Part shown: in pieces, positions 1-13,863 of the stretch
Layout: the number at the start of each line of letters is the position of its first letter
Position numbering within the stretch: position 1 is the first letter of the stretch
Assembly (NCBI RefSeq): GCF_014651515.1
Contig: NZ_BMXA01000001.1
Location: 62,001-126,000, forward strand
DNA: 64,000 bases
Source of the DNA: Arenicella chitinivorans
Lineage (GTDB): Bacteria; Pseudomonadota; Gammaproteobacteria; Arenicellales; Arenicellaceae
Direction: 5' to 3'
The notes under the pieces: generated by a model
Databases searched by the model: none
Told to the model about the DNA's origin: nothing
What the model saw: only the letters and a program-made list of their open reading frames with translations
Translations under genes and position numbers: made by a program

Positions 1-446
1 ATATTGCTATACGGATTATGCGGCAGCCACCGGATGAACTGGTCGGACGGGATTTGGGTGAATTCACCATGGCGGCTTACGCAACACAGGCGCACATAGA
101 TAGATACAATCCAGCCTCTCCGGGTACGCAATCCGGGATGCTGGCATGGGGATCGCCTGAGCGTTGGCGGCCACGCCATGGTTTTGACCACCTCCGCGCG
201 GTTGGCTTCTTCGATAATGTGCCGTTGCAATGCGACCTAGCTAGGCAGGGCGTTGGTGTCGCCAGTTTACCGTGCCTGCTCGGCGACAGCATTCCGGAGC
301 TGGTACGGATATCAGAGCCAATGCGTATGGGGGAGATTTGGGTGGTCTACCATGCCGATCTACGTCAAACCTCGCGGGTGCGGGTAGTGCGTGATTTTCT
401 GTGTGAAAACCTCTCTCAACACATAAGGCGAGTTGCCGTCCCGTGA
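1..446 (+). CDS. LysR-family transcriptional regulator, C-terminal part
   Basis: The window opens inside this gene: the frame is open from base 3 and ends at the TGA at 444-446, leaving about 147 residues. What remains looks like the second half of a LysR effector-binding domain. An IAIRI strand is followed by PPDELVGRDLGEF, where the family usually has a 'pdsLvarrLg' segment, and GVGVASLPCLLGD matches the usual 'G-x-G-I-a-x-L-P' stretch. The DNA-binding helix-turn-helix would lie to the left of the window. Its target cannot be inferred. No neighbouring gene in the window is divergently arranged with it. Confidence 0.75.
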   Translation, partial: IAIRIMRQPPDELVGRDLGEFTMAAYATQAHIDRYNPASPGTQSGMLAWGSPERWRPRHGFDHLRAVGFFDNVPLQCDLARQGVGVASLPCLLGDSIPELVRISEPMRMGEIWVVYHADLRQTSRVRVVRDFLCENLSQHIRRVAVP

Positions 447-485
447 ATCTGAATTGGAGGCCGTAATCACGGTCACATTTGAGCA

Positions 486-827
486 CTATTCGACGAGTGC
501 GCCGCGATAAAAACGCTTTTTCGCTTTGGGCTTGTCCGAGTCTGGACGCGCGATCGACTTCGACTGTGTGTGAGCACGATTCTCTGCGATCTCAACGCCC
601 CGGTAGTAGCGCTTCTTGGGTTGCAGTTGCACATACCACTCGTCTCCGGCACGTCTAAAAAACGCTTCCACTAGCGTGCGAACCATGTTGTCGTCGCTGG
701 ACCAATAGACATTGATCATCGCGCTACTTAAGTCGGCGCTGGAAATTTTTAAATCGTCACCCAGCTCCGGCGGTAAATTGCGTTTAATCTCAAAGAACAA
801 ATTCACCATGTATCGATCTACTTTCAT
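486..827 (-). CDS. hypothetical protein with two K-K-R-[YF]-Y-R-G motifs
   Basis: A 113-residue soluble protein that I do not recognise. It has an N-terminal region with mixed charge (residues 1-65) and then two copies of a short basic motif, KKRYYRG near residue 71 and KKRFYRG near the C-terminus. They are separated by a polar, probably disordered linker rich in Ser, Lys and Asp. There is no signal peptide, membrane segment or cysteine pair. The two motifs may bind nucleic acid or another acidic partner, but that is inference. It is convergent with the LysR fragment and divergent from katG. The composition is similar to its neighbours and the frame is clean. Confidence 0.55.
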   Translation of the reverse strand: MKVDRYMVNLFFEIKRNLPPELGDDLKISSADLSSAMINVYWSSDDNMVRTLVEAFFRRAGDEWYVQLQPKKRYYRGVEIAENRAHTQSKSIARPDSDKPKAKKRFYRGALVE

Positions 828-1181
828 ATCTACAACTCAACCAATGACCCTAGACACCAACCTACCCGGTGTTCGAATAGCAAATTAAGTGCCAACTGGA
901 CGTATGTTTATAAAAGTGCTTTGTAAACAAGATGTTAATCAACGTTTGCGCAAATGAGTGTAAAACACCGCACCGCGTTGCTTGCGTCTTTTTTGGGCAA
1001 GCTGCACTCAACGAGTGCGCTCAAAATCGGTAATCCATCTTTAGGCCTGGCGTGACCTGACACGTTGTGATTGAGAAATCCGATGATTGTTATCTAAATA
1101 ATGAATCGAATTACAGATACTAATCTAAAAAATTTGTTCTATAGTTTCATTGCAAACCTTCAACACGCAATGGAGCGACAC
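828..1181. other. intergenic region between two divergent genes
   Basis: About 350 bases with no convincing gene. It must hold the promoters of the minus-strand hypothetical gene and of katG. I see no clear sigma70 pair and no obvious OxyR-like repeat by eye. In-frame starts upstream of base 1182 exist for katG (ATG at 1101 and 1170), but the Shine-Dalgarno GGAG at 1172-1175 favours 1182. Confidence 0.4.
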
Positions 1182-3395
1182 ATGTTTAAACCCTATAAAT
1201 CTCTGTTCACGGCACTTTCTTTGTCGTTGACGATGCTGGCCGCATCTCAAAACGCGTATGCGACCGGTCCGGCTAAGTCCCCACAATTTTGGTGGCCGGA
1301 AAAATTAGACCTCACACCGCTACGCCAACATTCCGTTGAATCGAATCCGTATGGCGCCGATTTTGACTACGCGGCGGAATTTGCCACGATTGACCTCGAC
1401 CAACTGAAGAAGGAGATCGAAGCGGTGATGACCGACTCACAAGACTGGTGGCCTGCGGACTACGGCCACTATGGTCCATTTTTCATCCGCATGGCTTGGC
1501 ACAGTGCGGGAACCTATCGTGTACTTGATGGGCGCGGTGGTGCCGGCGGTGGCCAACAGCGTTTTGAACCGTTGAACAGCTGGCCGGACAACGTCAATTT
1601 GGATAAAGCACGTCGTTTGTTGTGGCCAATCAAGCAAAAATATGGGCGCAAGCTGTCGTGGGCAGACTTGATGGTGTTGACCGGTAATGTGGCGTTGGAA
1701 TCAATGGGCTTTACGACGTTTGGATTCGCAGGTGGCCGCACCGATGACTGGGAACCTGATTTGGTTTACTGGGGACCGGAAACCAAGTTTCTGGATGACA
1801 AGCGCTACTCCAAAGGACGTCAGCTCGAAAAGCCGCTGGCCGCGGTGCAGATGGGATTGATTTACGTCAACCCGGAAGGCCCTAACGGTAACCACGATCC
1901 AATTTCTGCGGCGCAGGACATCCGGGAGACGTTTGGCCGGATGGCGATGAACGATGAAGAAACGGTCGCCTTGATCGCCGGTGGTCACACGTTTGGTAAA
2001 GCCCATGGTGCCGTGAAAGCTGATTGTGTGGGCGCAGAGCCGTCTGCAGCCGAGATCGAAGAGCAGGGTTTTGGTTGGAAAAACAAGTGTGGTACTGGTA
2101 AAGGCGCTGATACCATGACCAGCGGGCTGGAGGGAGCATGGTCCGCAAATCCGATAGCGTGGAGTTCGCAGTATTTAGATAACCTGTTTGCGTTTGAATG
2201 GGTGCAAGCTAAGAGTCCTGCTGGCGCAGTACAGTGGATCCCAGCGGATGGCCAAGCGTCGATGCTGGTGCCAGACGCGCATGACAAGACCAAGCGACAC
2301 GCGCCGATCATGTTCACAACAGATCTCTCGCTTAAAATGGATCCAAGCTATCGTGAGATCGCTCAACGATTCCAAAAGGATCCGAAAGCGTTCGAACTTG
2401 CCTTTGCTAAAGCGTGGTTCAAGCTAACGCATCGCGACATGGGGCCGCGTGCGCGGTATGTTGGCTCCGAAGTGCCAACCGAAGCGTTGATTTGGCAGGA
2501 CCCAATTCCTGCCACAGACCATCCTTTGGTGAATGCGAGTCAAGTAGCTGACATCAAAGCAGACATACTGAAGTCAGGCCTCAGCGTATCGGAGTTGGTG
2601 CGCACAGCTTGGGCGTCGGCAGCCAGCTATCGCGGTACAGACATGCGCGGTGGTACCGATGGTGGGCGCCTGCGTCTCGCGCCACAGAAAGACTGGGCCG
2701 TAAATAATCCGCAGGAACTGTCAAAAGTGTTGTCGACGTTGAGTGAGATTCGGTCTGATTTCAATAAACGTGGTAATGGCGGAACGCAAATCTCAATGGC
2801 CGACATGATCGTACTGGCAGGTGCAGCCGCAATCGAAAAGGCCGCGGAGCAGGCTGGCACGACGGTTTCCGTACCATTTTTGCCCGGCCGAGGTGATGCA
2901 ACAGTGGAGCAAACTGACGTAGCATCATTTGCGCTCCTGGAGCCAGCAGCCGATGGGTTCCGCAACTACTATGGCGCTTCGAGTGCCTTGTCGCCGGCTG
3001 AGATGCTAGTTGATCGCGCTAATCTACTGACCTTAACTGTGCCTGAAATGACGGTCTTAGTGGGAGGCTTGCGAGCGCTAAATGCCAACACACAGGCGTC
3101 TCAATTGGGTGTGCTGACAGATCGTCCTGGTGCGCTGAGTAACGACTTCTTTGTGAACTTGCTTGATATGGGGACAGCGTGGCAAAAGTCCGATAAAACC
3201 AACGGCGTTTACGACGGCGTCGATCGCAAAACTGGCGAACTGCGTTGGCAAGCTACCCCGGTGGATCTCGTGTTTGGCTCAAATTCTGAGCTCAGAGCGA
3301 TTGCGGAGGTATACGGTGCTGGCGATGCAGATAATCAGTTCACTAAGGACTTCGTAAGTGCATGGACCAAAGTAATGAATCTTGGAAGATTCTAG
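1182..3395 (+). CDS. katG: catalase-peroxidase with an export signal
   Basis: Bifunctional haem catalase-peroxidase, which removes hydrogen peroxide. With the start at ATG 1182 (GGAG six bases upstream) the protein is 737 residues, the usual KatG length plus a leader. Residues 1-28 form a signal peptide (basic start, long Leu/Ser/Ala core, ending near NAYA), so the enzyme is probably periplasmic, like E. coli KatP. The distal triad Arg103, Trp106 and His107 lies in [11 protein letters not shown]. The Met-Tyr-Trp crosslink partners are Tyr228 and Met254. The proximal haem ligand His269 lies in [10 protein letters not shown]. The C-terminal, non-catalytic half is complete. The gene is followed by a strong terminator and is probably monocistronic. 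Confidence 0.95.
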
Positions 3396-3422
3396 GCCTA
3401 CGAAATAAGTCTATAAAAATTG

Positions 3423-3457
3423 CGGCCCTTTCTTGTAGCAGACGAGAAAGGGCCGTT
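3423..3457 (+). terminator. Rho-independent terminator after katG
   Basis: A perfect 11-bp stem, CGGCCCTTTCT pairing with AGAAAGGGCCG around an 11-base loop, is followed by TTTCACTTT. It lies about 30 bases after the katG stop codon and insulates katG from the roadblock/BLUF locus. Confidence 0.85.
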
Positions 3458-3612
3458 TCACTTTATAGGTGCGTTCAATGATTGGGTTAGAAAAAAATCG
3501 CGTACGTGTCTTTTTCTCGACAAACCCCGTTAAGTTGGTGTATGTTGATCGTCTGGTAGTGAGGGCTGCCAATCTACAATTTTGAGAAAAAGTCATACCT
3601 TGGGGGGTATCT

Positions 3613-3972
3613 ATGGCAAACATTGAATCAAGTCTTAAGGAACTTTTAGCCATTGACGGCGCATTGGGCGCTTGTATCGTGGATTACAAATCCGGCATGT
3701 CGCTCGGCCACAGTGGCGGCGGTGTGGATTTAGAACTCGCGGCCGCAGGCAACTCTGAAGTGGTTAAAGCCAAAATGGCGACCATGAAGTCTCTGGGTAT
3801 TAAGGGTGAGATTGAAGACATTTTGATCACGCTGAAAGACCAGCTTCACATTATTCGTCCAACGGCAAGTCATAACGGTTTATTCATTTATCTTGTTCTG
3901 GATCGAAACAAATCTAACCTGGCCCTAGCTCGCCGCAAAGTCCACTCGATTGAAGAGGACTTAGAAGTTTAG
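3613..3972 (+). CDS. roadblock/LC7-type small protein A, module 1
   Basis: A 119-residue protein with the roadblock/LC7 pattern: an amphipathic first helix, then IDGALGACIVDYKSGMSLG (strand-turn-strand around a DY-x-x-G turn), a helix, and a C-terminal 'IYLVLDR...NLALARRKV' strand and helix. Such proteins dimerise and commonly act as scaffolds or activators of Ras-like GTPases (MglB, CvnB). The start is ATG 3613 behind a GGGGGG Shine-Dalgarno. By eye it is about 75% identical over its whole length to the gene at 6046-6405, so the two arose by duplication. It is followed by a hairpin-bearing gap of about 220 bases and then the first BLUF gene. The family call is by pattern; the GTPase partnership is inferred from the neighbouring module. 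Confidence 0.8.
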   Translation: MANIESSLKELLAIDGALGACIVDYKSGMSLGHSGGGVDLELAAAGNSEVVKAKMATMKSLGIKGEIEDILITLKDQLHIIRPTASHNGLFIYLVLDRNKSNLALARRKVHSIEEDLEV

Positions 3973-4099
3973 CAATACACGAGTAGGGGTGTTGCTGATG
4001 ATTGCCGGTGCAACAAAGTGCACCTTGGCTTAGGGAAACTGACTCGATCCCCAAAGCTAACGCGAAGTCTGTAACACACTCCGAATTATTTCTACTACT

Positions 4100-4118
4100 G
4101 AACCTGTTTTACAGGTTC
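4100..4118 (+). repeat. perfect hairpin between roadblock A and BLUF 1
   Basis: GAACCTG, loop TTTTA, CAGGTTC: a 7-bp perfect stem in the 218-base gap between the first roadblock gene and the first BLUF gene. No T-run follows, so it may be an RNA stability element or a weak attenuator rather than a terminator. A different hairpin occupies the equivalent gap in module 2. Confidence 0.5.
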
Positions 4119-4190
4119 ATGTAACTAAGTGATTAGTATTACGCCATGACCATCCGACAACGACGGCGTGATTCAGAAGGGGAAACAAAA

Positions 4191-4934
4191 GTGAGATGTA
4201 TTACATATATTAGTAAGGTAACGTGTCGACGTAACGGGGCTACTATTCCAGTTGGGCTGTCAGAAATTTATCGTATTTCAAGAGCGAGAAATACACAGAA
4301 CCAGATCACAGGCATGCTGACCTACCGTGGTGGATACTATCTGGGAGTACTTGAAGGCAGCACCACTAAACTGGATGAACTGCTGGTGAAATTAAACTGC
4401 GACAAACGCCATGAGAACTTCACTGTGTTGGTTGATACGGTGGCGAGAAAACGCTACTTCTCCGATTGGCATATGAAGCTTGCCGAGTCACTGAGTCTTG
4501 ACGCTGGTTTCACCAAGTTCATGGCGGATCAGTCGAATCAGGTTGCGCAGTTAACTGCGGGTCAATTGACGCTACTTAATCAGTTCTATGACGTGTCTGA
4601 GATTGCCGCTGACCATAAAGCATCGTATCGAGATCGAACTTTGAAGTTAATTCGCTGGCCAGATTTCAGCGTGATTAATCAATCTCCAGAATTGGTCGAA
4701 TTATGCGCACTATTGACTAATCGACCACAGCGATACCAGGACTTATTGGCACTGAACCAAGTATCGAGCAGTGAAAAACTGGACCAATATCTGGATAAAT
4801 TCGATTCGCTTGGCTTGCTGAAAACAGTTACACCACAGGCTGAGAGTGGAGTCGCACCGCTGGAGAAATCGGCGCTTCGTTTTATTTATAAGATGAAACG
4901 TTTTCTGGGTGCGACACAGGGCAGCCGGATATGA
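4191..4934 (+). CDS. BLUF-domain protein with C-terminal winged-helix-like domain, module 1 (Gln-less)
   Basis: The protein is 247 residues if translation starts at GTG 4191, which has AGGGGA seven to eight bases upstream; an ATG 15 codons earlier lacks such a site. Residues 1-100 are a BLUF flavin-binding domain: Tyr6 in ITYIS, Asn34 in RNTQNQITG, an LEG motif at 54-56, and Trp93/Met95 in FSDWHM. The conserved light-switching glutamine (AppA Gln63) is replaced by Gly52 in YYLGVLEG, so the normal BLUF photocycle is not expected. Residues about 150-230 look like a winged-helix segment beginning at RWPDFS. It is a paralogue of 6709-7476, aligning without gaps through the core. Unlike module 2, no GTPase gene follows it. 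Confidence 0.88.
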   Translation: MRCITYISKVTCRRNGATIPVGLSEIYRISRARNTQNQITGMLTYRGGYYLGVLEGSTTKLDELLVKLNCDKRHENFTVLVDTVARKRYFSDWHMKLAESLSLDAGFTKFMADQSNQVAQLTAGQLTLLNQFYDVSEIAADHKASYRDRTLKLIRWPDFSVINQSPELVELCALLTNRPQRYQDLLALNQVSSSEKLDQYLDKFDSLGLLKTVTPQAESGVAPLEKSALRFIYKMKRFLGATQGSRI

Positions 4935-5068
4935 TTGGGATCTATTCATAGCGGCTTGGGCGTCAATGGGTTTCCCAGTTCGCGCTGGATAGAGATGGTT
5001 TGGAATCGGCAAGGCTCAGTTGGTTGTGTGAGCTCTGAGTTCTCAGGGAATAAAGGCGGGTAGGACAA

Positions 5069-5485
5069 ATGAGTAACCTTGATACTGGGTTCAGTGATGA
5101 ACTCAAATCGCGGCTGGAACACATGTTGAAATCATTGTGTATAGCTAGGAAAGAAATATTTCTGGCCAGCGTATGCACGGTAGACGGGTTCAACATTCGG
5201 TCCGTGACATCCAGCGCTAGAACGACTGAAGTGGATAAACTGGCGGCCATGGCCAGCACCATAGTGTCGTTAAGCGCCGCGTCAGCTCAGCAGTTACTGG
5301 CGCTCCCGTCGACTTTTACCACCATTGAAACTGAGGGCGGTAATATCTTATTTTTGCTTACTAAGTTGCTCGACAAGGAATGCGTATTGACGTTAGCCGT
5401 AAACAACCAAATGCAACTTGCTAATGCGCGGTATGAAGCCATGCGGCTGGCAAATGCCATTTCGGAATTGAAAAGCGTGATGTAA
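5069..5485 (+). CDS. roadblock/LC7-type protein B, module 1
   Basis: A 138-residue protein of the second roadblock type in this locus. Residues 30-60 give FLASVCTVDGFNIRS, the strand-'DG'-strand signature, followed by a helix with KLAAMASTIVSLSAASAQQ and a strand with GGNILFLLTK. It is clearly related to 8035-8433, which has the same KLAAM-S-S-T-I-x-x-L-S motif, and only distantly to the roadblock A proteins. It follows BLUF 1 after 134 bases, exactly where module 2 has the GTPase plus roadblock B. It starts at ATG 5069 with AGG six bases upstream. It probably dimerises and partners a Ras-like GTPase. With no GTPase in its own module, it may share the GTPase of module 2 (inference). Confidence 0.78.
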   Translation: MSNLDTGFSDELKSRLEHMLKSLCIARKEIFLASVCTVDGFNIRSVTSSARTTEVDKLAAMASTIVSLSAASAQQLLALPSTFTTIETEGGNILFLLTKLLDKECVLTLAVNNQMQLANARYEAMRLANAISELKSVM

Positions 5486-6045
5486 AGCAGATTTCGGGTC
5501 ACGGGGATAGAGCGAGATCAGCCGATTTGTAGTCGAACCTTGCATGATGCGCCGCTGGCGACGATCCGGGTGACCCATGTTAACGACCTACGGTTGTACT
5601 CCGCGTTAAATACGGCACCGTCCGTGCTTCAACGTGCAGTTATTTAGGTAGGACGCACCGTGATCAGCAACGTTACGTCAGCTCGATTAAATTGCAGCAT
5701 GTCAGTGGCGTGTTCGCCTACGGCTTCGATTCGGTGCCTATAAATTGGTTGATTTGTACGTCTTCCATTGGCCTGTCTATTTTTTCGACACTGGTTGATT
5801 TGTCCAACGCAAAAAGACAATTCGGACATAGTCAAGCTGTCTAGTATTTTGATAATAAGGATTTATGCGAACTATTTGCGTTTTCAAGCTGAAAATACCC
5901 GTGATTGTGTTAAATCACTGTATTTATTGGAGAAAAAACTTTACATAATGTATTTTTGTGTATAATCACGCCGCATAGGCAGGGACCGCCGACTTAGGGT
6001 GGGATTGGATCAAATTTTTATTTCAAATTTAGAGGAACAACTGAT
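5486..6045. other. 560-base gap between the two light-sensing modules
   Basis: No coding region is convincing here; the short open frames start without ribosome sites and have no protein-like composition. The left part probably includes the end of transcription of module 1, although no clean terminator is visible. An 11-base direct repeat, GGTTGATTTGT, occurs at 5747-5757 and 5793-5803. The right end holds the promoter of module 2. Confidence 0.5.
5940..5966 (+). promoter_or_regulatory. putative sigma70 promoter of module 2
   Basis: A perfect TATAAT at 5961-5966 is preceded by TTTACA at 5940-5945. The 15-base spacer is short, so the true -35 contact may be shifted or an activator may assist. 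It lies about 75 bases upstream of the roadblock A start at 6046. Confidence 0.5.
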
Positions 6046-6405
6046 ATGGCAAATATTGACGGTAGCTTGAATGGGTTAATGGAAATCGACGGCGCGATGG
6101 GCGCATGCATCGTGGATTACACAACGGGAATGTCACTGGGCACAATTGGTTCTGGTGTGGATTTGGAGCTGGCTGCAGCAGGTAATACTGAAGTAGTAAA
6201 AGCTAAAATGGATACGATGAAGTCGCTAGGCATTGAGGGTGGAATCGAAGATATTTTGATTACCCTGGATACTCAACTGCATATCATTAAACCATCGCTG
6301 AATAACACTGGCCTGTTCATTTACCTAGTTTTGGACAAAGGCAAATCAAACCTTGCTTTGGCTCGTCGTAAAGTACAGAGCATCGACGACGCGCTAGAAG
6401 TTTAG
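6046..6405 (+). CDS. roadblock/LC7-type small protein A, module 2
   Basis: A 119-residue roadblock/LC7-type protein of the same length as its paralogue at 3613-3972, with identical core motifs (IDGA-x-GACIVDY, GVDLELAAAGN, NLALARRKV). The differences are scattered and mostly conservative, which suggests both copies are under selection. The start is ATG 6046 behind GAGGAAC. It sits first in module 2, downstream of a strong -10 box, and is followed by a hairpin with a short T-run that could let it be made in excess over the receptor and GTPase. Its expected role is a dimeric scaffold or regulator of the GTPase encoded at 7481-8017 (inference from MglB and CvnB relatives). Confidence 0.8.
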   Translation: MANIDGSLNGLMEIDGAMGACIVDYTTGMSLGTIGSGVDLELAAAGNTEVVKAKMDTMKSLGIEGGIEDILITLDTQLHIIKPSLNNTGLFIYLVLDKGKSNLALARRKVQSIDDALEV

Positions 6406-6708
6406 TCGTCTAAACCTGCTCGGCAAGTAACTCGGTGTCACACCGTCAAGCACTTGTCGAGTTCCGGTTAGTACGCCGGAATTTTGAATTCGTCCGCAAC
6501 ACAGCAGAATGCTCGGTTACGATTTACGACCGAACATAATACAGGGTCACTGGTAGGTTAACGCTTGTGTGTGCGGCTAGGGGTAGTGTGTAGATTTCCC
6601 CTGATTTCATACAAATGCATGATTTCGTGAATGCCAGGAGCGGCGAACTGGTCAATGGAAGGCGAGATCATACTATGGCAATAGTTACCTATTCAGGGGG
6701 TGGATCAA
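6406..6708. other. leader region between roadblock A and BLUF 2
   Basis: About 300 bases without a gene. An imperfect stem lies at 6419-6461 (CTCGGCAAGT with ACTTGTCGAG), then the hairpin described separately at 6462-6485. The right end carries the AGGGGG ribosome site at 6695-6700. Gaps of this kind separate roadblock A from BLUF in both modules. Confidence 0.4.
6462..6485 (+). terminator. possible attenuator or partial terminator after roadblock A, module 2
   Basis: TTCCGG and CCGGAA pair around an 8-base loop and are followed by TTTT. The stem is only six base pairs, so partial rather than full termination is more likely. This would fit higher expression of the first gene than of the rest. 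Confidence 0.45.
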
Positions 6709-7476
6709 TTGAAATGTATTATGTACATAAGCCGAGTTCGGGTGCGTAAAGATGGAGTCGTAATTCCTGTCGGTCTGTCTGACATTTACGCACGCTCGCG
6801 AAAACGGAATGCCGAACGCGGTATTTCATCAGTGATGTCGTTTCGAAAGGCGCACTACTTACAAATCATTGAAGGCAAGGTCGATGACGTCGATGCGTTA
6901 TTTGCAAATATCTGTGATGATCCTAGGCATACCGATGTTGAAAAGCTCCTTGATTGTTCAATTTCTGACCGGTTTTTTCCTAAATGGAGTTTCAAACTCT
7001 TGGAGTCCGTTCAAAAGGCACCCGAGTTCATTCGGTTTGTTAATCGGCACAACCGAGAGATTGGAGACTTTGATGCGCACCAAACAGAGCTTCTTCAATT
7101 ATTCTATGATTTGAGTAAACCAAGGGTAACCGCCTGCGATTACTCGGGCAAAGAATTGATGCTGCGCGGCTGGCCCGACTTTTCTGAAATCAGTCAGTCT
7201 CCAACGATCATTGAGCTTTGTGCACGACTCACTAAGCGACCACACACTTACGAGAGCTTGGTTGACGGCGGGGATTTTGGAACGCGTAGACAAATCGACG
7301 TAATCCTACAAAAGCTAGATCGCCTTGAGCTTCTAAACGCATTTGCTTACGAGGAAGATGCGCAACTGGCGACGGCGTCGAGTGGCGCTGCGGCAGTGAC
7401 CACGGCAAATATTGAGGCGTCGCGTTCCAATGGCTTTTATGGGAAAATGCGAGAGTTTCTATTCAAATCAAGGTAA
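6709..7476 (+). CDS. BLUF-domain photoreceptor with C-terminal winged-helix-like domain, module 2
   Basis: A 255-residue blue-light sensor using FAD. The start is probably TTG 6709: AGGGGG at 6695-6700 lies eight bases upstream, and the resulting N-terminus MKCIMYIS aligns residue for residue with MRCITYIS of BLUF 1; an in-frame GTG at 6700 overlaps the ribosome site. The full photoactive set is present: Tyr6, Asn34, Gln52 in HYLQIIEG and Trp93 in FPKWSF. Phe95 replaces the usual Met. Residues about 150-235 form a winged-helix-like segment (RGWPDFSEI..., then [13 protein letters not shown]). The gene is four bases upstream of the GTPase start, so they are almost certainly co-translated. Light probably changes how the tail contacts the roadblock/GTPase partners (inference). 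Confidence 0.9.
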
Positions 7477-7480
7477 CAGC

Positions 7481-8017
7481 ATGGAATATCGAAAGCTCGC
7501 CATCGTAGGCGAAGTCGGCGCGGGTAAGACGCAGCTGGTCAAAACCTTAAGTGAGATCAGTCCACTGGAGACTGAAGCTGAATCCACTATCGACATTGGT
7601 AAAAAATACACCACTGTGGGTATCGATTACGGTCGAATTTCGCTCAGCTCGGACACCGCACTTGGTTTGTACGGAGTCCCTGGTCAATCACGCTACTCAT
7701 TTTTATGGAATTTCGTGAACACCTCGCTCTGGGGGTTATTGATCCTGCTCAAGTACGGTGAGACACCGGATTACGATAATCTGGATGAGTTGTTGACGTT
7801 CTTCGCACCGCATGAACAACGCACCACGTGCGTGGTTGCCGTGACGCACTGCGAAGATGCCGGCGACGGTGGCATGACCGCTTTGAATAGTGAAATCCAG
7901 GCCTTATTAGAACACCATAAAATTGTGGCGCCGATTATCCAAATCGACCCGCGTGACAAGAACTCGGCGATGTCGATTTTGCATATCTTTAATGCAATCA
8001 ATCAATATGCTGCATAA
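7481..8017 (+). CDS. Ras-like small GTPase, CvnD/MglA-like
   Basis: A 178-residue small GTPase. The P-loop GEVGAGKT is at residues 10-17, switch I threonines at 44-45, the G3 motif reads YGVPGQ (65-69) where eukaryotic Ras has D-x-x-G-Q, and the G4-like motif THCED is at 122-126. The 'G-x-P-G-Q' form is typical of bacterial conservon-type GTPases. Translation starts at ATG 7481, just after the BLUF 2 stop, with AAGG overlapping that stop; a start further upstream would overlap BLUF 2. The next gene, roadblock B, follows after 17 bases. It should cycle between GTP and GDP forms, controlled by the roadblock proteins and perhaps by light through BLUF 2. It is the only GTPase of the locus. Confidence 0.88.
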
Positions 8018-8034
8018 CCATTAGAATTTTGACA

Positions 8035-8433
8035 ATGTCTGATAAAACGATCCCCGTAAAACCAGAGTTGCTGGATGAAATCAAGAGGCTCTGTGAAGAG
8101 AACCGCGAAATTGCACTCATCAGTTTATGTACGACAGATGGATTTTCCATCAAGTCATTTGCCACGCGAGAATTGAGCGCTGAAGCTGATAAGTTGGCTG
8201 CCATGAGTAGCACCATTTCGGCCTTAAGTGAGTCTGCTGCTCAACAGGTTCTGAAAGGTGAGTTCAATGTCACTATCGTGGAATCAGGAGAGGGAAATAT
8301 GCTGTTTGTACGGACATCATATTTGGGTTTGCCGTGCGTTGTGACGGTGGCCGCTCGCGTCAATTTGTCTTTAGCCAAGGCGCGATTTGCTACTAAACGC
8401 ATGGCGGAAGTCATCCAAAAAATCGAGGCCTAG
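8035..8433 (+). CDS. roadblock/LC7-type protein B, module 2
   Basis: A 132-residue roadblock protein, paralogue of 5069-5485. Residues 23-48 read as helix, then IALISLCTTDGFSIKS, followed by KLAAMSSTISALSESAAQQ and a strand with EGNMLFVRTSY. ATG 8035 is chosen over the TTG two codons earlier. No strong ribosome site is visible, so coupling to the GTPase stop at 8015-8017 is likely. The gene ends the module and is followed by a clear terminator. Together with roadblock A it gives the locus two distinct roadblock types per module, which could form homo- or heterodimers around the GTPase (inference). Confidence 0.8.
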   Translation: MSDKTIPVKPELLDEIKRLCEENREIALISLCTTDGFSIKSFATRELSAEADKLAAMSSTISALSESAAQQVLKGEFNVTIVESGEGNMLFVRTSYLGLPCVVTVAARVNLSLAKARFATKRMAEVIQKIEA

Positions 8434-8452
8434 TCGCTTCTCTGAAAGGATT

Positions 8453-8481
8453 GAAAGGGTGGCCTATGAGCCGCCCTTTTT
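8453..8481 (+). terminator. terminator of the BLUF/roadblock/GTPase locus
   Basis: AAAGGGTGGC pairs with GCCGCCCTTT, with a small mismatch, around a short loop and is followed by TTTTT. It lies 20 bases after the last roadblock stop codon and also faces the convergent TerB-like gene. Confidence 0.8.
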
Positions 8482-8513
8482 AATGGCATCTGTTCGCGCA
8501 ATCGCCTGAAAGT

Positions 8514-8936
8514 TTAAAACTTAGAGCGATCGTTTTTTATGGTAATTACGTCAACGATTTTTTCGATGTCGGCTTCACTGACTTCAAAAGTATTGGCGTA
8601 CGCACGAAGCAGCAAGTTTTCGGCTTCGTCCAAATAACCATCCGCCATGGCAATGTCGAACATATTCGCCATCGCGATACGTTGTTGTTTTTCGTCTAAA
8701 GAGGCGGCAACCAGCGGGATACAGTCTTCTAGCGGTGTATCGTTCCACACAGCAATCGCGGTGTTCCAGTCATCGGTGGTCTTAAAGCCGTCTAAGCGGT
8801 TAATGATTGCCATCTCGTGTGCGTCCAGTTCACCGTCGATGGCGGTAATCGTAATTGTGGCAAGCAATAGTGCTGCCTTTGGAGGGATCGTTGGTTTCAT
8901 AAAAGCATAGATGGGGGCGTTATCCGAGCATAGCAA
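8514..8936 (-). CDS. TerB-like helical protein
   Basis: A 140-residue, acidic, all-helical protein with the TerB/DjlA-N pattern: AALLLATITITAIDGELDAHEM near residue 16 and AMANMFDIAMADGYLDEAE near residue 95, each a helix with a D-G-x-L/Y-D-x-x-E metal-binding-like turn. TerB domains are found in tellurite-resistance and many envelope-stress contexts; here no other ter gene is present, so the role is open. An alternative start, ATG at 8900, would remove 12 residues and bring the protein closer to the usual TerB length. No strong ribosome site decides between them. It is convergent with the light-sensing locus. Confidence 0.7.
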   Translation of the reverse strand: MLCSDNAPIYAFMKPTIPPKAALLLATITITAIDGELDAHEMAIINRLDGFKTTDDWNTAIAVWNDTPLEDCIPLVAASLDEKQQRIAMANMFDIAMADGYLDEAENLLLRAYANTFEVSEADIEKIVDVITIKNDRSKF

Positions 8937-9012
8937 GTCGAATGTAACTGTTTTTGTAGCCTGCTATTCTATGCTGTTTTATAGTGGAGAGGCGATGTGG
9001 TTTCATTGGCTT

Positions 9013-9912
9013 TTACGCGATCGGCTCGATCACTGCGTATTGCGACAGAAATTTGGTGATGGCCTGAATGGATTCGGGCTCGTCTAGCATGGGGGCATGA
9101 CCAACGCGTGGTACTTCCACTTGGTGCAGGCTTGGATTTAGTTGCTGCATTTTCGTCACACATTCGCGCGTCAGCAGATCAGAAATTGCCCCTCGGATTA
9201 TGAGCATCGGACGATCCTTGATTGTAGTGAACAAGGGCCACATATCCGCCGGCCTGTTTTCATTGTAGTCGTCATTAAAGGCATCAGAAATGTGCGGATC
9301 ATAAGCAAGAACTGGCTTGCCGCTGCTGTCTTCAGTATAGATTCGTGCAGTAAACGCTGCCCAGTCATCGCCCGAAGCATCGGGGAAAGCGATTTGGTTT
9401 ATCAGTTTCGTCTGTGCAATGGCTTCGGGCCAGTTCGTTACCGGTTGAAGTTTTCCCACGTATTTTTTGAGCCGGTTCAACGCGTCGGCAGGTATTTCAG
9501 GACCGATATCGTTCAAAACCAGGGCGGTAACGCGTTGCGGTTGCATGGCCGCCATGACCATGCCAATGATGCCGCCCATGGACGTGCCGATAATTGTGAC
9601 CTTTTCGATCTGTAGATGCGCCAGCAATGTAAACATGTCCTGCGCATAAGTTTGCGGTGTGTAGTTCGCGCTGTTGCTGTCGTAGTCGGATAAGCCTCGA
9701 CCGCGTTGGTCCACCACCACACACCGATAGCGTTCAGATAGATAAGGGATCAACGGTTCGAAGTCAGCGGAGTTGCGAGTGAGTCCATGCATGCACAAGA
9801 CTACCGGACGTGCGTCCGCGCCGTGTGCCAAGACGTAATCGCGTGCGTACAGTTTGAGGCCGTCCTGGCTTGTGTATTCGATTACCTTGAATTCTCGTTT
9901 GCTTAAATCCAT
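9013..9912 (-). CDS. alpha/beta-hydrolase
   Basis: A 299-residue alpha/beta-hydrolase. The oxyanion region VLCMHGLTRNSADF lies near residue 40, the nucleophile elbow is GTSMGG (Ser near 107), the acid is probably the Asp in RGAISDLL, and the catalytic His is in VGHAPML near the end. There is no signal peptide, so it is cytoplasmic. ATG 9912 is used; it begins one base after the stop of the upstream acyl-CoA synthetase, so the two form an operon. In this regulon it could hydrolyse ester oligomers or an acyl product imported by the TonB receptor and symporter. The substrate cannot be read from the sequence. Confidence 0.88.
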   Translation of the reverse strand: MDLSKREFKVIEYTSQDGLKLYARDYVLAHGADARPVVLCMHGLTRNSADFEPLIPYLSERYRCVVVDQRGRGLSDYDSNSANYTPQTYAQDMFTLLAHLQIEKVTIIGTSMGGIIGMVMAAMQPQRVTALVLNDIGPEIPADALNRLKKYVGKLQPVTNWPEAIAQTKLINQIAFPDASGDDWAAFTARIYTEDSSGKPVLAYDPHISDAFNDDYNENRPADMWPLFTTIKDRPMLIIRGAISDLLTRECVTKMQQLNPSLHQVEVPRVGHAPMLDEPESIQAITKFLSQYAVIEPIA

Positions 9913-9913
9913 C

Positions 9914-11476
9914 TTAGTGATATTGATCTTGTGCGTAGCGCGCACGCAGTTCGCGCTTTAGAATTTTACCATTCGGATTACGCGGCAATTCGTCGATAAA
10001 GATAACATCAGTTATTCGTTGTTGCCTACCGAGTTTTTGGTTAGCCCAAGTCATGATTGCAGTCGCATCGTCACGCGTGTCGGCGTTGCGGACTACTAGC
10101 GCAACCGGAGTCTCGCCCCATTTACGACTTGCGGCAGCGATCACGGCGACGTCATTGACCGCAGGGTGCTGAAACAGAACAGCCTCGATATCTTGCGGAT
10201 ATATATTCTGTCCACCGGATAGAATCATATCCTTCTTTCGATCCACGATGTATAGAAAACCCGCATCGTCTAGATAACCAATGTCGCCCGTACGCAGCCA
10301 CAGGCGGCCATGCGGGTCGGTATAGCTGGCATCTCGATTGGCATCCTCGCGATTAAGGTATCCGGGCATGGTGATGCGTCCACGTGACACGATCTCTCCA
10401 CTCTTATTTGCGGGCGCCGGACGGTCTTCGTCGTCAAGAATAAGAATGTCGGTTCCGATCAATGGCTTGCCTACGGAAGACCATCTGCCCTCCGATTGTT
10501 CGGGGTCGATCGTCGTAATCACGCCTTCAGTTAAGCCGTAAAGCTCAATGATGCCGCAATCAAACTGCTTGAATAACGCGCGTTTGACGTCTGCGTGCAA
10601 GGGTGAACCGCAACTCATCATGGATTGCATGCTAGACAGGTCGATCGCGTCAGTTGTCTGTTCGATGGCCTCGACAATACGTTGAAACTGAATGGGCACC
10701 ATGGCGGTATGCGTAATTTGCTGATGCTTGACGGTATCGAGAAATGAGAACGCATCGAAGTGTGTATGTATCACAACGCTGCCGCCGGCAAGCAGGGTGG
10801 TGAGCATCGCTACCCAGGAGATGTTTGAATACAAACCCAGCGTCAATAGGGTTCGACTTTTGCCGTGGTAGCGCAGCGCGATAGCCAGGTCGTAGGCCCA
10901 GTCACGTCGTCCTGCATGGTTGTGTACGATGCCTTTAGGTAGACCAGTTGTGCCCGAGCTGTAGATGATGTTCAGTGGCAACGTTGGGTGTATATCAACA
11001 CTGGGTAAGCTGGTCGGTTGGTTTGCCATCAGATCGGCAAAGGGCGTCCAGCCTTCGTCGGGCTCGTCGCACAACCAAAGCGTCAGGCTTGCGGGCAAAC
11101 GATCGCGGAGGCGATTTAGTCTTTGTGCCTGATCCCGTGTTACGGCAAGGGCGCTAATCTTCGCGTCCATCAGCATGCCGAGTAAGGCATCATCATTTAC
11201 GGAAAGATTGATTGGAACTGAAACCACGCCAGCAGCCATGGCACCGAGCAAGGTGGTTAACATCGGTAGGCCGTTCGACATGACGACGCCAAGCGTTTGC
11301 CCGCCCTCGATTCCGTGTTGCGCTAGACCATGCGCAAACTGGTGTGCCTCGTTGGTAAGTTGTTGCCAGGTCAGGTGTGTTTCGCCGCAACTGGCAGCGA
11401 TGTCCTGGCTGCGCCATTTACCATGTAATGCGAAAATTTCAGGCAGAAACGGCGCCTTTGCGTCAAAAAAGTCCAT
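9914..11476 (-). CDS. acyl-CoA synthetase (AMP-forming)
   Basis: A 520-residue member of the class I adenylate-forming family, which joins a carboxylic acid to CoA through an acyl-AMP. The P-loop-like A3 motif YSSGTTGLPKG is near residue 170, YGLTEG near 310, the hinge region is TGDIGYLDDAGFLYIVDRKK, and the C-terminal catalytic lysine is in NPNGKILK. Start ATG 11476 has AAGAAG eight bases upstream; a GTG three codons earlier is less likely. It overlaps nothing and is followed by the alpha/beta-hydrolase after one base. It lies downstream of the TonB receptor gene, so it may share that operator-controlled promoter or have its own in the 134-base gap. The chain length of its substrate is unknown. 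Confidence 0.92.
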   Translation of the reverse strand: MDFFDAKAPFLPEIFALHGKWRSQDIAASCGETHLTWQQLTNEAHQFAHGLAQHGIEGGQTLGVVMSNGLPMLTTLLGAMAAGVVSVPINLSVNDDALLGMLMDAKISALAVTRDQAQRLNRLRDRLPASLTLWLCDEPDEGWTPFADLMANQPTSLPSVDIHPTLPLNIIYSSGTTGLPKGIVHNHAGRRDWAYDLAIALRYHGKSRTLLTLGLYSNISWVAMLTTLLAGGSVVIHTHFDAFSFLDTVKHQQITHTAMVPIQFQRIVEAIEQTTDAIDLSSMQSMMSCGSPLHADVKRALFKQFDCGIIELYGLTEGVITTIDPEQSEGRWSSVGKPLIGTDILILDDEDRPAPANKSGEIVSRGRITMPGYLNREDANRDASYTDPHGRLWLRTGDIGYLDDAGFLYIVDRKKDMILSGGQNIYPQDIEAVLFQHPAVNDVAVIAAASRKWGETPVALVVRNADTRDDATAIMTWANQKLGRQQRITDVIFIDELPRNPNGKILKRELRARYAQDQYH

Positions 11477-11610
11477 ACTTATCACTTCTTAAGTCAGCCG
11501 GCGTGTCGGGCCGACAGTTCGCTGCTATGCAGCATGATGGAAATTGGGTGACAGCCAGGCTGTGTCCAGGTCGGTTACAACCCGGGTGTCACCGCACAGA
11601 GTGGCTCAGA

Positions 11611-13863
11611 TTAGTAGCGGTAACCGATACTCAAGCTGATGGTGCGTGGGTCACCGTAGTAGCCAACGACCGTGTCTTCGCCGCCAAGGCCTGGTCCAGC
11701 TTCGGTCGTGGCAAAGTTATATCCAGCTAATCGATATTCTTTGTCTCCTAGGTTTTTACCTTGCAGTGAAATCCAAAGTCGATTATTCGGCGAGGTAAAG
11801 GTCAGCCCCGCGTTAAATAGGGTGTAGGCTTCTTCGTCCAGTTGCGAAGGCACCTCAAAGATTTGCGTGTCGCTGCGATAAGCAATATTGCCGGTAACGA
11901 CCATGCCCCAATCTGAGAACACGCGGCTATGGTGTGAGAAACCAAAATTGACTGAAGTGTCGGGTGTGTTCGCGAAACCCCAAAAATCGGCGACATCAGT
12001 CAAGCTGCCAGTGTTTGGGTCCGCGGTGAGAACTTGATCAAACTCGGCGTCCAACAGGCCGGCAGTAAGGTTCGCGGTTAAAGCGTCAGATACGGCATAG
12101 ACAAGCTCGAGTTCGACCCCTTGAATGCTGGAATCCGCTGCGTTTAACACGGTGGAGGCGAAATCCGCACCGCTGTCGATGGTACGTTGAATCGTGACCT
12201 GCTGGTCCTGATAATCCGAATTGAAATACGCGACGTTCGCGCGCAGACGATTGTCGAACAGCTCCGCTTTGTAGCCGATTTCAACCGTGCCAACAGTCTC
12301 CGGGTCGTAGGGGTCAAAACCGGACGCGATCTGGTCGGTTCGCGCACGCATGTCAAAACCGCCTGATTTGAAGCCTTCGCTGTAACTGGCGTAAATCAGG
12401 TTGTCACCAGCAGTGCGGTATTCGAGGCCAACCCGTGGGGAGAATTCAGACCAGTCCTCACTGCCGACCGCATCGGTTCGTACAATGCCCGGTGCAATCG
12501 GCGTCGTATCAAAGTCAACCACTTGACCGAGGAACAACGTGTTCTTCGCGGTCGCGTCTTTTTCATCTTGGGTGTAACGACCGCCTAGCGTCAGTGACCA
12601 ACGGTCATTGAGGGTCCAGTTAGCTTGTGCGTAGGCTGAGCTGCTGGTGGTGTCGACACAGCCCTCGGTGGTCGCAGAAATCGGTAAGGCGCCTCCGGCG
12701 AACTCTTCGAGTAAAGCATGGAATGTTCCGCATGCTTCACCAGTGTAGTAATAAAGACCGCCAACGATATCCAAGTTATCACCGGTGTAACTCAGTTGTA
12801 GCTCCTGTGTTGTTTGATCATCGTCGTAACGCGCGGGGACATCAAAAGAACGCAAGATGGTGTTGTCGAAATCGATATTGGTGTCGGTAAATCCTTCGCG
12901 CGCGGCGGTAATTGAACGCAGCGTTAAGCTATCGTTGATTACCCATTCTGCATGCAATGCGTATCCTTCGCTTTCAACATAGTTCTCGGTCGACATGCCA
13001 GCACGGGTACTGAAAACGTCTTCCAATACAGGCTCACCCGTCAGATCACTTGGCGTTAAGCGATGACCGCCTTTGGCGTTCGAGTTGTCTTCGGTGCGAT
13101 CAGCCGTGAATTTAAACGATAGATTATCCGTTGGGTAAAATTCAGCGGCGATGCGTCCGGCCACCATGTCTTTGTTGTAGTTTTCTTCGCCTAGGTTGAT
13201 GAATTCGCCGAAGCCATCGCGATTAAGTGAGGCAACCGCGCCTCCGATGTACAGTTTTTCGCCCATCAGTGGTGCCGCAGCGGAAATTTTCAGGTCGCGC
13301 TGGTTATAGGAGCCGACTTTAGCTTCGACTGAAAATTGATCAGCATCACGCAGTTTGCGTGTCACGTATTTGAGTGCGCCACCAATCGTGTTTTTGCCAT
13401 ACAGTGTGCCTTGTGGGCCCCGTAGCACCTCAACGCGTTCGACATCGAGAATGTCCAGCACTGCGCCCTGTGGTCGCGCAACGTAAACATCATCAACATA
13501 AACCCCGACTCCAGGTTCAAACCCCCATAACGGATCCTGTTGGCCGACACCGCGGATATAGGCGGTCAAGGTGGTGCTGGTGCCACGGCTTACTTGCAGT
13601 GTCGTATTTGGCAAGCGTTGTTGCAAGTCCGTGATATTTTCTACCCCTGACTCACTCAAGGCCATGCTGTTAAATGCGGATACCGCAACGGGGACGTCTT
13701 GCAAGTTTTCTGAAATGCGACGCGATGTGACGACAATTTCTTCTAATTGAGTGGGTTGAGCTTGTGCGTCGGATTCGGCTTGCGCGTGGCCCATTGCGGG
13801 AACCGATAGGCAAGCCAGTGCCACCATTGTGGGCACAAATCTGGGTGCAGTTAACTTCTGCAT
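11611..13863 (-). CDS. TonB-dependent outer-membrane receptor
   Basis: A 750-residue outer-membrane receptor. A signal peptide (residues 1-27, ending AMGHAQA) is followed by a TonB box, EEIVVTSRR, near residue 42. The plug domain contains the RGxGQQDPLWG and LRGPQGTLYGKNTIGG motifs, and the rest is a beta-barrel ending in an aromatic residue (SIGYRY). Sequence style is that of the large sphingomonad/marine group of receptors used for uptake of carbohydrates, aromatics or lipidic compounds rather than strictly siderophores. Its promoter carries two TTCAAC-type operators, one lying between -35 and -10. It forms a regulon with the SSS symporter, SDR and secreted esterase genes, which suggests import of a product of the esterase. 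Confidence 0.93.
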   Translation of the reverse strand: MQKLTAPRFVPTMVALACLSVPAMGHAQAESDAQAQPTQLEEIVVTSRRISENLQDVPVAVSAFNSMALSESGVENITDLQQRLPNTTLQVSRGTSTTLTAYIRGVGQQDPLWGFEPGVGVYVDDVYVARPQGAVLDILDVERVEVLRGPQGTLYGKNTIGGALKYVTRKLRDADQFSVEAKVGSYNQRDLKISAAAPLMGEKLYIGGAVASLNRDGFGEFINLGEENYNKDMVAGRIAAEFYPTDNLSFKFTADRTEDNSNAKGGHRLTPSDLTGEPVLEDVFSTRAGMSTENYVESEGYALHAEWVINDSLTLRSITAAREGFTDTNIDFDNTILRSFDVPARYDDDQTTQELQLSYTGDNLDIVGGLYYYTGEACGTFHALLEEFAGGALPISATTEGCVDTTSSSAYAQANWTLNDRWSLTLGGRYTQDEKDATAKNTLFLGQVVDFDTTPIAPGIVRTDAVGSEDWSEFSPRVGLEYRTAGDNLIYASYSEGFKSGGFDMRARTDQIASGFDPYDPETVGTVEIGYKAELFDNRLRANVAYFNSDYQDQQVTIQRTIDSGADFASTVLNAADSSIQGVELELVYAVSDALTANLTAGLLDAEFDQVLTADPNTGSLTDVADFWGFANTPDTSVNFGFSHHSRVFSDWGMVVTGNIAYRSDTQIFEVPSQLDEEAYTLFNAGLTFTSPNNRLWISLQGKNLGDKEYRLAGYNFATTEAGPGLGGEDTVVGYYGDPRTISLSIGYRY

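Follow-up and report, generated by a model that had tools for sequence, protein, structure and literature searches.

What is a blue-light receptor domain doing directly in front of the gene for a Ras-like GTPase, among genes for roadblock proteins? The question is raised by a locus of Arenicella chitinivorans, at positions 3613-8433 of a stretch of 64,000 nucleotides (contig NZ_BMXA01000001.1, positions 62,001 to 126,000), which is called the window here. The locus encodes two modules, in each of which a divergent roadblock protein (RbA) is followed by a BLUF protein with a C-terminal tail and, at the end, by a second roadblock protein (RbB); in module 2 a small GTPase stands before RbB. We consider it probable that the locus is a GTPase switch of the Group 3 MglA type in which a blue-light sensor has replaced the usual input domain. 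Its assignment to Group 3-type switches with a BLUF input is the firmest part of this answer and is very probably correct. The seven genes are as follows.

3613-3972, + strand: RbA1, divergent roadblock protein of module 1, 119 amino acids, 75% identical to RbA2, whose model has the MglB fold.
4146-4934, + strand: BLUF1 with Group 3 tail, 262 amino acids, Gly replacing the photoactive Gln (HYLGVLEG-type), probably light-blind; Pfam BLUF, 73.6 bits.
5069-5485, + strand: RbB1, Robl_LC7 (MglB-like) protein, 138 amino acids; Pfam Robl_LC7, 24.9 bits against a cut-off of 23.
6046-6405, + strand: RbA2, divergent roadblock protein of module 2, 119 amino acids; AlphaFold model with a predicted local distance difference test score (pLDDT) of 92 and a match to MglB.
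6700-7476, + strand: BLUF2 with Group 3 tail, 258 amino acids, Tyr, Asn, Gln and Trp kept, candidate photoreceptor; Pfam BLUF, 73.4 bits.
7481-8017, + strand: MglA-family Ras-like GTPase of module 2, 178 amino acids; Pfam Ras, 22.7 bits, and ATP_bind_1, 33.6 bits, both above cut-off.
8035-8433, + strand: RbB2, MglB-like roadblock protein, 132 amino acids, with an Asp-Gly pair (TTDGF); Robl_LC7, 18.7 bits, E 0.0015, slightly below the cut-off of 23.

All seven genes had been proposed, at these positions and in this order, by a sequence-only reading of the DNA, and Pfam recovered BLUF twice (both domains at about 74 bits, against a cut-off of 25), the Ras GTPase and RbB1. The GTPase gene does begin four bases past the BLUF gene (BLUF2 stop at 7476, GTPase ATG at 7481) and does encode YGVPGQ as its G3 motif. 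The profile searches suggested at that time placed BLUF, Ras and RbB1 above cut-off, while RbB2 fell just below, RbA matched nothing and the tail was not recognized as DUF742. Two tandem modules are present as far as gene order goes, but they are not equivalent, because BLUF1 has Gly for Gln and module 1 has no GTPase. This Arenicella genome encodes two BLUF domains and one close GTPase homologue, that of module 2.

Group 3 MglA systems were described in beta- and gammaproteobacteria by Wuichet and Sogaard-Andersen (2014) as an MglA, one or two MglB proteins and a receiver-like/winged-helix protein (PMC4316618). The N-terminus of that neighbour was predicted to be receiver-like and its C-terminus to be a winged helix-turn-helix, and a role in transcription was suggested (PMC4316618). 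The motifs of the window GTPase (G1 GEVGAGKT, G2 TTVGIDYG, G3 YGVPGQ, G4 THCED and G5 DPR) show each of the deviations that mark Group 3, namely no Arg in G2, PGQ in G3, a G4 without Lys and D-x-R in G5. One or two MglB roadblock proteins are likewise found, RbB being recognized by Pfam and RbA by its predicted fold.

The tail provides a further link to Group 3. In beta- and gammaproteobacteria, RbA-GTPase-RbB sets without BLUF adjoin a protein of about 300 amino acids without Pfam matches, and the BLUF tails aligned with the C-termini of this neighbour (hhalign probability 98%, E 4e-14), whereas the N-termini of the two proteins are unrelated (hhalign probability 0.1). The receiver-like N-terminus is absent from the window protein and a BLUF domain stands there instead. 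As judged from these alignments, BLUF takes the place of the receiver-like input of the Group 3 protein; the sequence-only reading had it replace the kinase and DUF742 parts of an actinobacterial conservon. Other combinations of these parts occur. Kangiella encodes, adjoining the GTPase, a tail-only protein with no sensor domain (L064:4540-5004 and L066:4634-5026), downstream of a large efflux-pump-like open reading frame, and in Marinicella meishanensis (L136:3264-5578) a full receiver-type Group 3 protein and separate BLUF and tail genes precede one GTPase. Considering these architectures together with the tail homology, what stays constant is the tail, and what varies is the input. The predicted secondary structure of the tail is strand-helix-helix-helix-strand, and its strongest motif is WPDF, followed by LCAxL, before and at the first helix.

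Neither Pfam nor NCBIfam assigned RbA1 or RbA2 to a relevant family, and a sequence search of the PDB gave no match. Nevertheless, an AlphaFold model of RbA2 (45 sequences) reached a mean pLDDT of 92 and superposed on Myxococcus MglB with Z 17.3 over 114 aligned residues, at a root-mean-square deviation of 1.5 A. RbA is therefore predicted to have an MglB-like roadblock fold, identified by fold after sequence searches had missed it, and the guess that had named it "roadblock A" is borne out by the model. By this prediction and its homologues, RbA is a widespread roadblock branch that is not caught by Pfam. RbB1 and RbB2 are 40% identical. An Asp-Gly pair, such as RbB carries, is a described feature of MglB in Groups 2-5 (PMC4316618). 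Homologues of RbA with about 50-60% identity were also seen on Streptomyces, Deinococcus and other records of the plasmids collection (H3-H20), where they are hypothetical or unannotated. A third, orphan RbA is encoded elsewhere in the Arenicella genome of the window, at G000:C1:761869-762222 (L040, L145), between a two-component pair (histidine kinase and OmpR-type regulator) and TerC.

The unit is not peculiar to this strain. Of 17 congeners, all of them Arenicella metagenome-assembled genomes (MAGs), seven have the order RbA-BLUF-GTPase-RbB around GTPase homologues, at eight further loci in total. An RbA-profile scan of 84,980 species genomes yielded 328 loci, and in 45 of the best-scoring 79, which were the loci studied, a BLUF gene directly precedes the GTPase gene, in two gene orders; this share describes the nearest relatives and not the whole family. 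Psychrobacter near-copies were counted singly, so that the independent lineages are fewer than the loci. The order RbA-BLUF-GTPase-RbB is found in Psychrobacter, Arenicella, Wenzhouxiangella and others, and BLUF-GTPase-RbB-RbA in Gilvimarinus, Zhongshania, Oceanobacter, Parathalassolituus and others. BLUF and tail are separate genes at three Marinicella loci. The unit is also carried by an Agarilytica plasmid (L139), where the annotation names BLUF and roadblock only and leaves RbA and GTPase as "hypothetical". With seven congeners and dozens of loci in other genera, the neighbourhood comparison that the sequence-only reading had proposed came out in its favour, and the gene order is conserved far beyond chance. 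In the GTPase tree, all BLUF-linked sequences fall within one clade (support of 100 in the Shimodaira-Hasegawa-like approximate likelihood-ratio test, SH-aLRT), together with a few BLUF-less relatives.

Some loci depart from the common arrangement. Psychrobacter sp. NZS113 (L089:624-5864) encodes two complete BLUF-GTPase units in tandem. Four loci of further Arenicella genomes (L156, L162, L163 and L164) encode BLUF with a recognisable tail and neither GTPase nor roadblock protein within 1.5 kb. Two loci are labelled Eubacteriales (L092) and Verrucomicrobiales (L095); the L092 GTPase lies among Psychrobacter sequences at zero branch length, and this locus is probably a mis-binned MAG contig.

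BLUF photochemistry relies on a network of Tyr, Gln and flavin. Read from an alignment to bPAC, the photocycle Tyr, Asn, Gln and Trp are all present in BLUF2, the model of which (pLDDT 87) matches BLUF structures at Z 15. Among the RbA-first loci, which include those of Arenicella and Psychrobacter, Tyr is kept in 31 of 32 BLUF domains and Gln in 31 of 32, and the four residues occur together with two exceptions: L095, a long branch with Cys for Tyr and without Gln, and L067, with His for Trp. On these residues, module 2 is likely to be light-responsive. The RbA-last loci include a branch, centred on Cellvibrionales, in which the photoactive Tyr is replaced by Cys (13 loci: L071, L073, L077, L079, L080, L082, L084, L090, L103, L106, L113, L118 and L120) and the GTPase unit is kept. 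The Cys-bearing BLUF-fold domain is perhaps a non-light sensor, and the unit appears to exist in light-capable and, probably, in light-incapable forms.

BLUF1, probably light-blind with Gly at the photocycle Gln position, shares this substitution with a homologue in another genome (G005), and the two form one clade (SH-aLRT 98). The G005 homologue retains its GTPase; the most economical order of events is therefore loss of Gln, followed in the lineage of the window by loss of the GTPase. Module 1 would thus descend from an older paralogue that was already without Gln, and would now either be in decay or, being light-blind, partner the module 2 GTPase or compete for it. G005 also has a separate canonical BLUF gene (205 amino acids, L143:7414-8028), encoded divergently beside its Gln-to-Gly module. 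Within the gap that follows BLUF1 (window 4935-5068), a stretch read in frame beyond the stop codon (LGVNGFPSSRWIEMVWN) is similar to the G3 region of the GTPase and is a possible gene remnant. A GTPase pseudogene is not claimed here, as the G3-like trace had p of about 0.02-0.2, varying with the query.

The genes on either side of the modules, and the hairpin upstream, are the following.

1101-3395: katG, upstream of module 1.
3422-3456, + strand: terminator-like hairpin between katG and module 1, 15 pairs, 8 of them G-C; a consensus match only, and the longest stem found.
8514-8936, - strand: TerB-like protein, encoded downstream of module 2 and opposite to it in direction.

The hairpin suggests that katG is transcribed apart from module 1. 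No RNA families were detected in window positions 1-12000.

How might such a switch work? MglB roadblock proteins are GTPase-activating proteins (GAPs) of MglA, and RbB is likely to be the GAP of the window GTPase, with RbA as a second partner that may be MglC-like. Blue light would alter the hydrogen bonds between flavin adenine dinucleotide, Tyr and Gln in BLUF2, and the change would travel via linker helices to the tail. Contact of the tail with the GTPase or with RbA/RbB dimers would be altered, GTP hydrolysis or loading would shift, and the output would shift with it. We find it reasonably probable that light changes the GTPase cycle. The output would most likely be type IV pilus-based surface behaviour, or transcription. 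Pili are our first guess, because pilus-dependent motility in Snodgrassella is influenced by an orphan mglB belonging to a Group 3 system (PMC11112851) and T2SSE-family ATPases are encoded in the window genome, yet a pilus output is put forward tentatively, as possible rather than probable. As a whole, we lean slightly towards a natural and widespread Ras-like GTPase switch gated by blue light, with BLUF as a plug-in part, a later Cys-bearing non-light branch and, next to the light-sensing module of Arenicella, a paralogue that is blind and has no GTPase of its own.

Several observations weigh against this account. The branch with Cys for Tyr, which is a sister branch, shows that the unit can be maintained when BLUF photochemistry is lost, and a non-light role of the flavin could explain the conserved Tyr and Gln. 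From one genus to another the genes around the unit differ and offer no clue to the output, and T2SSE ATPases serve secretion too. The winged-helix reading of the tail derives from predicted secondary structure and from the fold that was published, as a prediction, for its homologue; the fold search of the BLUF2 model was filled with BLUF domains and covered the BLUF part only.

The main alternative is light-gated transcription, in which the tail binds DNA as a winged helix, and the only part played by the GTPase and roadblock proteins is to tune the access of the BLUF protein to DNA. The predicted winged helix-turn-helix in the homologous Group 3 C-terminus, for which the role in transcription had been suggested, and the order of strands and helices in the tail both fit this model. 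However, WPDF/LCAxL may be a protein rather than a DNA contact, and no conserved target gene adjoins the unit, so we regard this alternative as somewhat unlikely. Alternatively, BLUF may sense flavin redox state or a ligand without light being involved. The retention of the unit throughout the Cys branch, and of a Gln-less BLUF in module 1 through at least one species split, would be expected of such a sensor, and oxidative-stress genes do occur nearby, with katG in the window and catalase, Dps and dihydrolipoyl dehydrogenase on the Agarilytica plasmid (L139:1-4413). At the other loci checked there were no oxidative-stress neighbours, and across genera nearly all RbA-first loci conserve Tyr, Asn and Gln jointly, as a photocycle predicts. 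This sensor is unlikely in our view. An oxidative-stress regulon was also considered and rejected, given the unrelated neighbours elsewhere and the hairpin after katG.

The sequence-only reading had compared the locus to conservons, with BLUF and tail standing for the kinase and the DUF742 protein; as a rival explanation this would be a conservon-like membrane relay. The part types are the same, and aligning the tail with nine DUF742 sequences brought 53 columns into register, weakly (hhalign E 0.003, probability 10%). Against this, there is no histidine kinase among the seven genes by Pfam, nor in homologous units, and Pfam detected no DUF742 in the tail; in a second GTPase tree, its Acinetobacter plasmid row disregarded, actinobacterial CvnD GTPases form a clade of their own (SH-aLRT 100) with the BLUF-linked GTPases outside it. 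With Group 3 the closer match, conservon membership was rejected, and a conservon-like relay is very unlikely. Chance adjacency of BLUF, GTPase and roadblock genes, in favour of which nothing was found, is refuted by the presence of the unit in dozens of loci, in many genera, in two orders and on a plasmid, and its probability is negligible.

For the GTPase switch with a BLUF input that we favour, no counterpart was found in the open-licence papers searched, and no paper among them was found to couple BLUF to MglA-type GTPases or roadblock proteins (most subscription journals lay outside their scope); to this extent the earlier impression of an undescribed system stands. A tree published in 2013 includes a divergent Psychrobacter BLUF and mentions no GTPase (PMC3554667). 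As a Group 3 MglA system with BLUF input, the unit in the window departs from the plain members: a receiver-like N-terminus was looked for and is absent. The neighbours of Group 3 MglA systems are conserved, and the literature searched reports no input signal for these systems. Where the input is a light sensor, the signal can be turned on and off at will, and culturable Psychrobacter would allow direct tests of input, GTPase cycle and output. If the proposal is true, BLUF receptors gain small GTPases as a further kind of output, and those who build light-controlled GTPase tools gain a natural part to start from.

Compared with known systems, the actinobacterial conservons (CvnA-D; Group 2 MglA) share with the window unit the clustering of a small GTPase, a roadblock protein and a small, possibly winged-helix protein, but they contain the histidine kinase CvnA, which the unit lacks, and differ in GTPase clade and phylum. 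The polarity module MglA/MglB/RomR of Myxococcus xanthus (Group 1) likewise pairs an MglA-family GTPase with a roadblock protein that acts on it; there a receiver protein gives the input, whereas the window GTPase has no intrinsic Arg in G2, differs in G4 and G5, and is accompanied by BLUF in place of the receiver. Group 3 MglA/MglB resembles the unit in the G-motif deviations of its small GTPase, in its one or two roadblock proteins and in a neighbour with a homologous C-terminal domain. That neighbour starts with a receiver-like domain, while the window protein starts with BLUF, which is unmentioned in PMC4316618. Finally, PixD, BlsA, BlrP1, bPAC and OaPAC share with module 2 the BLUF fold and the Tyr, Asn, Gln and Trp residues. 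These known BLUF proteins end in a short helical C-terminus, an EAL domain or a cyclase, whereas the window BLUF ends in a Group 3 tail and appears to be coupled to a GTPase.

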